DNA from: Picochlorum sp. 'celeri'
Lineage: Eukaryota > Chlorophyta > Trebouxiophyceae
Assembly: GCA_010909725.1 (NCBI GenBank)
Contig: JAACMV010000030.1
Span: 186,001 to 250,000, forward strand
DNA: 64,000 nucleotides
Direction: 5' to 3'
This document shows positions 18,034 through 20,548 of the stretch, in pieces. Each line of letters starts with the position of its first letter. Positions within the stretch are counted from its first letter, which is position 1. The notes under the pieces were generated by a model. The model had not been told where the DNA came from. It did no database searches and saw nothing but the letters and a program-made list of their open reading frames with translations. The position numbers were made by a program, and so were the translations under genes.

Positions 18034-19218
18034 ATGACAGTGCACCGAGTGCTCCTTCTGCTCTTCTTGGCGCAATGCGCTCTTGCGAGGCTCAAGCCAA
18101 GATTCTCATTCTCCGATCAAGAGGAGGCCGTCGCCTGGAGCGAAGACGTCCTCAAGCTGAAGAAGCAGTATGACTCCAAAAACGAGAAGGAGGCTCTTGC
18201 TGCAAGGAAAGAGGTCGCAACGCTCAGTCGGGAGTGGCGCGAAGAATTTGACGTGAAATGGTCTACCAAATTACTTCAGAAAAAGCTCAAGGTGTTCACG
18301 GACAACTTATGGTATGTTGGGGAGAAGAATGTGGACTTGGCCAAGGCAAAGAGCCCATGGTGGGTGTCACAGGGCAAATTCGCAGACCTGACATTCTCTC
18401 AATTCAGGAGAGAATATCTGATTGAAGACCTCAAAATACCAAAATTTGACTTTGATATAGAGGACTTGAAGATCAGGTTGTTCAGTTGCTTTGACTGGAG
18501 GGATGAAGATGTTGTGACTGGTGTCAGGAATCAAGGAGCATGTGGGTCTTGCTGGGCCTTTGCCGCCATCGCTACCATCGAGTCGAGGTACTTGATCGAG
18601 AACGGAGAGACTGTGGATGACAATCCGATCAATTTGTCCGAGCAGCAATTGGTGGACTGCGTGAGATCACCCAGGAGGGATTTGAACAATGGCAGGTATG
18701 ACTCTGTTGGCTGCTCAGGAGGATGGTCCGAGGAGGCCATGGAGTATGTTCGCCAGCATAATGTGACCTATGAGTCCGCCTATCCATATACTGCATCGGA
18801 TGGTGTGTGCAATCAAAATCCGCGGGACGGGTCAAGTCCTGAACCAGCAATGACCTTGGGGGGTCCAAATCCAGGATGGAGTGGCTATTCAGGGGGCAAC
18901 TCTACCATCATTAAATCTCTACTTGCTGTATCGCCTGTGGCAAACTACATCAGGGTGGAGAATGGTTTCCAGTTGTACAATGGTGGGGTCATGGATACAG
19001 CATGTACAGGTCAGGGCATTAATCATGCTACTGCAATTGTTGGATACTGCAACAGCAAGCTTCTGTTTGGAAACTTCAACTATTGGATTGTGAAAAACAG
19101 CTGGGGGACTGGTTGGGGAGAAGATGGCTATTACAGGATTCAAACTCGGTCTAGTGGGGCAGGTGTTTGCGAAAGCCAGTCAAGCATTTTCCAGCCAACA
19201 ATACCTACAGAGGCTTGA
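18034..19218 (+). CDS. Papain-like (C1A) cysteine protease, copy 2
   Basis: 394 residues, same length and architecture as copy 1: signal peptide, I29 propeptide, mature C1A domain with GSCWAF, NHATAIVGYC and KNSWGTGWG. Differs most in the propeptide-mature junction (residues ~130-155) and is identical over 176 bp around the catalytic Cys. Evidently a tandem duplicate under recent sequence exchange. Confidence 0.95.
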   Translation: MTVHRVLLLLFLAQCALARLKPRFSFSDQEEAVAWSEDVLKLKKQYDSKNEKEALAARKEVATLSREWREEFDVKWSTKLLQKKLKVFTDNLWYVGEKNVDLAKAKSPWWVSQGKFADLTFSQFRREYLIEDLKIPKFDFDIEDLKIRLFSCFDWRDEDVVTGVRNQGACGSCWAFAAIATIESRYLIENGETVDDNPINLSEQQLVDCVRSPRRDLNNGRYDSVGCSGGWSEEAMEYVRQHNVTYESAYPYTASDGVCNQNPRDGSSPEPAMTLGGPNPGWSGYSGGNSTIIKSLLAVSPVANYIRVENGFQLYNGGVMDTACTGQGINHATAIVGYCNSKLLFGNFNYWIVKNSWGTGWGEDGYYRIQTRSSGAGVCESQSSIFQPTIPTEA

Positions 19219-19660
19219 TGATTTTTTTGGGGGAGCCGTGTGTTCTGCACGCCAATGACTTTTTCTGTCCTGCTCTCTTTCTGTATTTTCAGGAGTCGAA
19301 TAACTTTCAGAGACGAGATGCTTGTGTTATTGTTTTGAAGCACTGTCACTGATGAGAGGGATGATCTTTGTTTGAACAGGCTAGTAGGTGACACCAGATG
19401 CTTGATCCATTGCCTTATGATTGGCATCTGTCTCATTCTATTCCTCTATACGTTTCTCGGATTGAATAGATTGCGTTTCTCTGTTGATGTAATTTTAAAG
19501 ATGTGATTTCACATTGCCTTTCCAGGCAACTTGATGATACCAGCAGGTGTATTATGACCACATGTGGCACTAATTCAGAGTACAAGAAGTGCACGCTGAC
19601 TGAATTCATCCAAGGCAAATGTTTAAAGTGAAGCGAGGACACATAAAAGCAAAAGAAGAA
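19219..19660. other. Intergenic, 3' flank of papain copy 2 and trailer of the tRNA
   Basis: No open gene. The end nearest the tRNA contains two A4 runs (19645-19648, 19651-19654), which on the minus strand are TTTT signals suited to Pol III termination. Confidence 0.5.
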
Positions 19661-19662
19661 GA

Positions 19663-19747
19663 TGGCAAGCGGACGTAATAGCCGTTATACCACTGGAGCT
19701 CAGAAGTAAATCTGCTCCAGCCCGGAGTCGAACCGGGGTATCCCGCT
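19663..19747 (-). tRNA. Permuted tRNA-Gly(GCC): 3' half precedes 5' half
   Basis: Read on the minus strand, the 3' half (19747-19713: anticodon-stem GCGGG, variable ATAC, T-arm CCCGG-TTCGACT-CCGGG, acceptor CTGGAGC, discriminator A) comes first, then a 13-nt spacer, then the 5' half (19699-19663: acceptor GCTCCAG, TG, D-arm GTAT-AACGGCTA-TTAC, G26, anticodon-stem TCCGC, loop TTGCCA). Joined at the normal 37/38 intron site they give a 72-nt cloverleaf: acceptor 7/7 pairs, T-stem 5/5, anticodon stem 5/5 with one G-U, D-stem 3 of 4, correct A14, G18G19, A21, TTC and a four-base variable loop as in plant tRNA-Gly(GCC). Box A and box B are intact. No other copy of either half lies nearby, so this is not a broken normal gene. 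Known permuted tRNAs mature through a circular intermediate cut by the splicing endonuclease. Confidence 0.88.
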
Positions 19748-20068
19748 AATTACTAAGTTGACAATTAGATGTAGAAAACGAATTTCCTATTCAATATGTA
19801 GCAAATGATTACATTACCCGGGCCTTTTGGCCCCCCATTTCGGGCCATTCATGGGTTGAAATGATGACATCAAACTTATTAATGAGTTCTATATCATCGA
19901 AAGTGGTACCTGAGATGGTAGAGACACTAGAAACCACGGAGGAACGCGAAGCAGCTTTGAATACTCATCCAACTGATCGATTAGGTATGGATATACATGC
20001 GAAAAGAATTCGAGATTCTTTACATTGGTATGAAATTAAATCCGGGCATCATGAAAGGCAATCAACAA
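19748..20068. other. Leader of the permuted tRNA and ELIP 3' flank
   Basis: Immediately before the tRNA 3' half lies a short hairpin-capable CTAATT...AATTAG. A plus-strand frame of 103 codons (19861-20172) runs into the ELIP gene antisense; it matches no family I know and is left unannotated. Confidence 0.45.
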
Positions 20069-20548
20069 TCAAAAGAAACAAGCACCTCCAGCCTGGTGCT
20101 CCAAGGCCAACAGCACTGCCCACGCCAGCATGGCTGCCCGCCCATTCACCTTCTCAGCTCGAACCGACATAAATCCGAAATCTTCATCCTTAACATTCTT
20201 CAGAATCGGTATCATCGACGCCCAAATCATCAAGCAGCAAAGGGCAACGTAGCCATAGTTGGGATTCAAAAACTGCTCAACTATGGATTCAGAGGTTTCC
20301 ATCTCCCGCAACGCCATGGGGAAAAACATAAGCATGGCTAACCTGCAGTTGATACGTTCCGGAGCGGGGCCAAATACTCCCATGGCTTCAAACAGTGACA
20401 ACTTGTTTCTAGGAACCACGACGGAGCCAGTCGTGCCTGTGGTGCCATTAGAAGCTTTGGTCCTCATATTTTGTAATCTCACTAAATTTGGTACAGATTG
20501 TGTGGACCGGATCGGCAATGTGCGCAATCCTCGTGCCAACGACGACAT
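20069..20548 (-). CDS. ELIP/LIL-type chlorophyll-binding-like protein
   Basis: 159 residues from Met at 20548; the frame is open further upstream but overlaps the end of the next gene. A Ser/Arg-rich transit peptide (~1-45) is followed by three hydrophobic helices. Helix 1 has ERINCRLAML and helix 3 has EKVNGRAAMLAW, the paired ExxNxRxAM motifs that bind chlorophyll and cross helices in the LHC superfamily. Thylakoid photoprotection is the usual role. It establishes that the organism has a plastid of photosynthetic type. Confidence 0.85.
   Translation of the reverse strand: MSSLARGLRTLPIRSTQSVPNLVRLQNMRTKASNGTTGTTGSVVVPRNKLSLFEAMGVFGPAPERINCRLAMLMFFPMALREMETSESIVEQFLNPNYGYVALCCLMIWASMIPILKNVKDEDFGFMSVRAEKVNGRAAMLAWAVLLALEHQAGGACFF

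Follow-up and report, generated by a model that had tools for sequence, protein, structure and literature searches.

Few tRNA genes are permuted, and what maintains them lacks an explanation. The available portions of the 2014 review by Soma (PMC3978253) count 11 permuted genes among the 43 tRNA genes of Cyanidioschyzon merolae, an organism in which homologues of TFC1 and TFC3 are reported absent. The same source lists 19 permuted genes in the prasinophytes Ostreococcus and Micromonas, of which 18 are type II, with three to six in each genome. Permuted-gene spacers on record there measure 1-74 nt. Permuted tRNA genes have already been reported from Auxenochlorella UTEX 250-A, also a trebouxiophyte, in the accessible part of its genome paper (PMC12633428). 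For Picochlorum, the titles and abstract openings listed in literature searches contain no report of permuted tRNAs, subscription papers and supplements aside. The word 'permuted' is absent from the main text of the Picochlorum SENEW3 paper, where tRNAscan-SE was used.

The locus described here lies in a 64-kb window of Picochlorum celeri DNA. As described in the available text of Becker et al. (2020, PMC7225527), the genome of this alga comprises 27.43 Mbp, divided into two phases that each have 15 scaffolds, with a G+C content of 46%. The assembly analysed contains 27,412,692 bases in 30 contigs, and the window has a G+C content of about 46%. Among the best 120 of 524 matches to the proline dehydrogenase of the window, an MMETSP transcriptome provides one at 99%, and the closest relatives with names come from Nannochloris (63%), Parachlorella, Micractinium and Chlorella. 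An earlier note on this DNA proposed that a permuted glycine tRNA gene would be diagnostic for lineage, and named Cyanidioschyzon, prasinophytes and some nucleomorphs as the established hosts. This part of its reading fails, since P. celeri (Trebouxiophyceae) belongs to none of those groups and Auxenochlorella also has such genes.

The window very probably contains a functional nuclear tRNA-Gly(GCC) gene of the circularly permuted kind (type II, 37/38), which is probably the sole gene for that anticodon. This reading rests on a cloverleaf with swapped halves, an hBH helix, downstream T-runs, the failure to find a linear copy, and halves that are identical on both alleles. On the minus strand, from 19747 to 19663, tRNA positions 38-73 come first, followed by a 13-nt spacer and then positions 1-37. 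The features of the locus, in window coordinates, are as follows.

19780..19786, minus strand: upstream element RAAATTC, 39 nt ahead of the 3' half; a possible external promoter element.
19748..19753, minus strand: end of the leader; its nucleotides -3 to -6 (19750-19753), paired with tRNA positions 32-35, form the central helix (4 bp) in an hBH splicing motif.
19713..19747, minus strand: 3' half of tRNA-Gly(GCC), positions 38-73 (35 nt, with a variable loop of 4), consisting of the 3' strand of the anticodon stem, variable loop, T arm, 3' strand of the acceptor stem and A73.
19700..19712, minus strand: intervening sequence of 13 nt from acceptor end 73 to position 1, with one allelic difference.
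19663..19699, minus strand: 5' half of tRNA-Gly(GCC), positions 1-37, with anticodon GCC at 19666-19664.
19645..19662, minus strand: trailer with two TTTT runs (19654-19651 and 19648-19645); a probable Pol III terminator.

When the halves are joined, the acceptor (7/7), T (5/5) and anticodon (5/5) stems are fully paired. The D stem has three of its four pairs, with a single T-T mismatch at 13:22. The earlier claim that all stems pair was thus slightly too strong, being correct for every stem but this one. The glycine cloverleaf with a 37/38 junction and the presence of invariant bases, both of which the note had also described, are borne out: ARAGORN calls the joined halves tRNA-Gly(gcc), and the sequence carries U8, U33, TTC at 54-56 and A73. 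CCA is absent from the window sequence at the 3' end of the tRNA. In the minimum-energy RNAfold structure of the linear precursor there is no cloverleaf, and the trailer is the pairing partner of the anticodon-stem strand in the 3' half. The proposed structure therefore rests on comparison and not on energy.

Swapping the halves of 14 linear tRNAs from this genome gave the basis for a covariance model, from which the Gly(GCC) gene was left out. At E values up to 10 over the whole window, this model returned one match, which is exactly 19747-19663 (55.3 bits, E 3.5e-15) and agrees with the order of halves and the 13-nt spacer described in the note. A custom finder for permuted tRNAs, which itself requires nearly paired stems and was used with a cut-off score of 46 or more, gave one match in the real window and none in the reversed window or in ten Markov shuffles. 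Exact matching against IMG/VR found no permuted Gly with the same sequence.

The Rfam tRNA model finds no tRNA over the whole window, and raising the E limit to 10 in 19000-20500 still gives none. ARAGORN instead calls an ordinary tRNA-Cys(ACA) at 19712-19803 on the minus strand, a reading of the locus that we rejected and consider highly improbable. An Infernal search of this interval at E up to 10 returns no tRNA, and the ARAGORN call treats the upstream leader as a 5' half while ignoring a perfect acceptor complement downstream. Furthermore, tRNA-Cys(GCA) has a permuted gene of its own (L042) elsewhere in the genome. Because ARAGORN and the Rfam tRNA model both miss the Gly(GCC) gene as such, the tRNA sets annotated for Picochlorum and its relatives may be incomplete.

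In the hBH geometry, tRNA positions 32-35 pair with leader positions -3 to -6. The Gly(GCC) gene has all four pairs of this central helix (TA, TA, GT and CG) and none of the four in the h' helix. Across the 19 permuted gene copies found in the genome (see below), the mean is 3.26 of 4 pairs, with eight copies at 4/4. Sliding the register by 1-12 in either direction (24 registers) lowers the mean to 1.26-2.47, and shuffled leaders average 2.31 with a maximum of 2.89, so that none of 2000 shuffles reaches the observed value. Two of the 19 copies, those for Ser(GCT) (1/4) and Cys(GCA) (2/4), have a weak helix.

Such a helix could also form between two molecules, and the halves are separate in the DNA, as they would be for a split tRNA whose parts are transcribed separately and joined in trans. 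We find this arrangement scarcely credible here. Just 13 nt lie between the halves, the spacer has no TTTT run, and the T-runs come only after the 5' half. The layout fits that of permuted genes, for which the accessible review text gives spacers of 1-74 nt (PMC3978253).

The genome contains Sen34 and Sen2 domains, representing both catalytic subunits of the tRNA-splicing endonuclease, that match the solved Sen34 and Sen2 in sequence. The Sen2 domain is present on seven contigs (C9, C12, C25, C26, C10, C16 and C21). Four 3.2-kb Sen2 blocks that were compared (C10, C12, C16 and C21) are 99.9-100% identical, and small contigs may therefore repeat chromosome sequence.

The TTTT runs that the note had placed after the Gly(GCC) gene have counterparts at the other permuted copies found in this genome. 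A TTTT run occurs within 40 nt downstream of all 19 permuted copies and of 21 of the 23 linear genes found, compared to 16% of background stretches. A TTAAGGAA-like element (for example, at L001, L009, L011, L017, L051 and L125) is also seen downstream of seven of the 23 linear tRNA genes but of only one of the 19 permuted copies.

The upstream element RAAATTC was first spotted by eye in permuted leaders. It occurs within 100 nt upstream of 12 of the 19 permuted copies and 11 of the 23 linear genes, versus 16 of 639 background stretches (2.5%). In its strict form it is absent from seven permuted copies and 12 linear genes. A weight matrix was made from ten sites of linear genes alone, which were chosen by the RAAATTC motif, and 15 of the 19 permuted leaders score above the 95% background level with this matrix. 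The best site in a 200-nt stretch upstream of U6 scores 7.3, just below the threshold of 7.4. From these distributions we infer that RAAATTC is an external Pol III element common to linear and permuted genes. A TFIIIC Tau95 domain, which we take to represent the TFC1 family, is present in the genome, and independence from TFIIIC consequently cannot be claimed.

These elements suggest how the Gly(GCC) gene could be expressed. Pol III would make one linear precursor, with the upstream element aiding the polymerase such that the order of the A and B boxes matters less. The tRNA-splicing endonuclease would cut the hBH motif, and a ligase would join position 37 to position 38 to form a circle. This circle would be opened when the 13-nt spacer is cut out at the acceptor stem, and CCA would be added to the opened tRNA. 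Maturation through circular RNA is inferred by analogy with Cyanidioschyzon. Judging from the gene layouts, production of working tRNAs probably requires that the scrambled RNAs be cut and their parts rejoined.

Other tRNA genes of this genome were sought in a census of B boxes. Sites were located with ungapped patterns on one haplotype, and those found solely on the other haplotype were mostly skipped. The patterns GGTTCGANTCC, GGTTCRANCCC and GGTTCAANTCC were followed in full on that haplotype. For AGTTCRANYCT (166 matches, 100 listed), all listed G57 sites of the haplotype and 27 A57 sites were fetched; for CGTTCRANYCG (105 matches, 100 listed), all listed G57 sites of the haplotype were fetched and no A57 sites. 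TGTTCRANYCA (404 matches, 100 listed) was left out. The census covers 160 regions, three of which were already known from the Rfam tRNA search of the genome, and the last 20 contained no tRNA. The finder gave 32 matches, with both alleles counted, in the 148,762 nt made up of the window and the loci chosen for B boxes, and none in the same nucleotides when reversed or in five Markov shuffles.

This incomplete census yields 18 permuted loci per haploid set, representing 17 anticodons, beside 23 linear genes. The permuted set includes Gly(GCC), Ala(TGC, CGC and AGC), Cys(GCA), Ser(GCT and AGA), Leu(AAG, CAG and TAA), Arg(TCT and CCT), two genes for Arg(TCG), elongator Met, Thr(CGT and AGT) and Tyr(GTA). 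The permuted CAT gene is presumably the elongator form, and the linear one (L014) resembles initiator Met. All of the permuted junctions found are 37/38, in a census that is blind to junctions inside the T loop (59/60). With their halves joined, all 19 copies are assigned the expected isotype and anticodon by ARAGORN. The acceptor (133/133), T (95/95) and anticodon (95/95) stems are completely paired and the D stems are paired at 68 of 76 positions, in a set for which the finder itself demands nearly paired stems. These counts, like those for the hBH motif, terminators and upstream elements, are for all 19 gene copies. They reduce to 18 loci because L050 (C30:266.1-266.8 kb) and L121 (C4:267.1-267.7 kb) are Ala(AGC) alleles in a segment that is inverted between haplotypes (blocks within C30:266271-270058 versus C4:267561-264118). 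L050 further contains an inverted repeat of 78 bp (1-74 and 368-445), and one of its arms overlaps the gene end.

The swapped-halves model was run on loci of the first three patterns only. Six assignments (L121, L128, L133, L136, L146 and L151) come from the finder alone, as does Ser(AGA) at L098, which the model did not list. The model alignment of Arg(TCG) is wrong, and its layout was taken from the finder. The two Arg(TCG) genes, L072 (G000:C8:59.1-59.6 kb) and L074 (C8:537.4-537.9 kb), are near-identical copies with 128-nt spacers. The L072 spacer folds better than 200 Markov resamples (z -2.8), and an Rfam search of this locus at E up to 0.5 gave no match.

Among the linear genes, ten lack an intron and 13 have one. 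ARAGORN and our own anticodon assignments disagree for five of the latter (L025, L029, L076, L095 and L114). The anticodon of L095 is uncertain; it was counted as Ser(TGA) for its long variable arm, though ARAGORN and the parser both read GAA. Two candidates were set aside. L112, which ARAGORN calls Ser(AGA) with an intron, forms no clean cloverleaf by eye and is excluded from all counts, and a finder match at L011 was dropped as spurious since it reused the T arm of a linear tRNA-Glu. A T-arm-like stretch, AGAGGTCCCGGGTTCAAA, is located immediately ahead of position 1 in the linear tRNA-Asn and tRNA-Phe genes (L005 and L021), and is perhaps the trace of a partial duplication. Compensatory T-stem changes are found between alleles of linear tRNA-Lys(TTT) (L013 and L016) and tRNA-Glu(CTC) (L011 and L012).

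Comparison of alleles provides a view of selection on the permuted genes. On contig C4, the Gly(GCC) allele keeps both halves unchanged and has one spacer change, out of six differences over 3241 nt in total. Counts were made for 17 allele pairs, without L050/L121, at locally aligned sites only. In the 15 pairs that are not for Ala, the halves show one substitution in 1145 aligned sites and one indel, compared to 15 of 610 sites and four indels in spacers and 57 of 2929 sites and seven indels in flanks (halves versus the rest, Fisher p 5e-8). The two Ala pairs counted are far more diverged (12/142 in halves and 19/58 in spacers) and do not share the conservation of the other pairs. The Ala(AGC) alleles in the inverted segment are 77% identical over 286 nt. 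Five of their base pairs change on both sides with pairing kept, including 27:43, 28:42 and 31:39, which connect the two swapped halves; in D-stem pairs 12 and 13, a mismatch is left in one allele each. Given this allelic conservation and these paired changes, the swapped halves appear to evolve as a single folded molecule.

By the usual decoding rules, GGT and GGC codons need a tRNA with a GCC anticodon. These codons account for 277 of the 679 glycine codons in 13 window ORFs. The 72-nt mature Gly(GCC) sequence, used as a DNA query in a search where only the best candidates were scored and which is therefore not exhaustive, matches the genome solely as two separate swapped halves, on C30 and its partner C4. 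Rfam gives 34 tRNA matches on the same genome, and Gly(GCC) is in none of the 33 that were read; the 34th, at C30:820084, sits at the position expected for the allele of the C4 Gly(TCC) gene. The incomplete B-box census contains no linear Gly(GCC) gene either. On the question raised in the note of whether an ordinary tRNA-Gly(GCC) exists, these searches agree in having found none within their coverage.

It is conceivable that the locus is a relic, either a permuted pseudogene or a rearrangement from a tandem duplication, and that a missed linear tRNA-Gly(GCC) does the work. Linear genes can be missed, as the incomplete census has no gene of any form for several anticodons, among them Gln TTG, Gly CCC, Leu TAG, Thr TGT, Val AAC and Val CAC. 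The D stem of the Gly(GCC) gene, with three of four pairs, also speaks for this reading. We nevertheless regard this explanation as very unlikely. The other three stems are perfect, the hBH helix and T-runs are in place, the sole allelic change falls in the spacer, and no linear match to the mature sequence was obtained. In addition, the layout is shared by 17 sister loci, for none of which was a linear gene of the same isoacceptor found.

A working permuted gene for Gly(GCC) can be placed in a broader proposal, which we consider evenly balanced between right and wrong. Among the genomes described in the works consulted, that of P. celeri may be the one with the most permuted tRNA genes, which make up at least 18 of about 41 loci found per haploid set. 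These include all three Ala tRNAs found, and for Gly(GCC), Cys, Tyr, elongator Met and others they are the only copies found. Its transcription might also proceed mainly via an external RAAATTC element shared with linear genes, which would free gene order and let spacers grow to 128 nt. According to the accessible literature, this alga is fast-growing, has a phased diploid genome and has been Cas9-edited by other groups. With at least 18 permuted genes beside 13 intron-bearing tRNA genes found, it would be a good place to study the transcription, circularisation and upkeep of permuted tRNAs.

The Gly(GCC) gene shares with those of C. merolae, as presented in the available review text, a 3' half that comes first on the same strand, a spacer at the acceptor end, a BHB-type motif, a downstream T-stretch and the lack of an encoded CCA. 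P. celeri differs from that organism in that the junctions found are all 37/38, 18 of the 41 loci found are permuted, an unusually rich set, and a Tau95 domain is present. It also has two 128-nt spacers, those of the Arg(TCG) genes, which exceed the reviewed range of 1-74 nt (PMC3978253). Auxenochlorella UTEX 250-A is likewise a trebouxiophyte with a diploid, streamlined genome, and its tRNAscan-SE set is also incomplete, as far as the accessible text reports (PMC12633428). The prasinophyte genes resemble the Gly(GCC) gene in their 37/38 junction, hBH motif, short spacers and location in a green algal nucleus. However, prasinophytes belong to a different green algal class and carry three to six permuted genes per genome rather than 18 loci, and these are mostly for Ser, Leu, Cys and iMet, with no Gly(GCC) in the review table. 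Relative to that table (PMC3978253), a permuted Gly(GCC) gene is a new member of a class that is itself already known.
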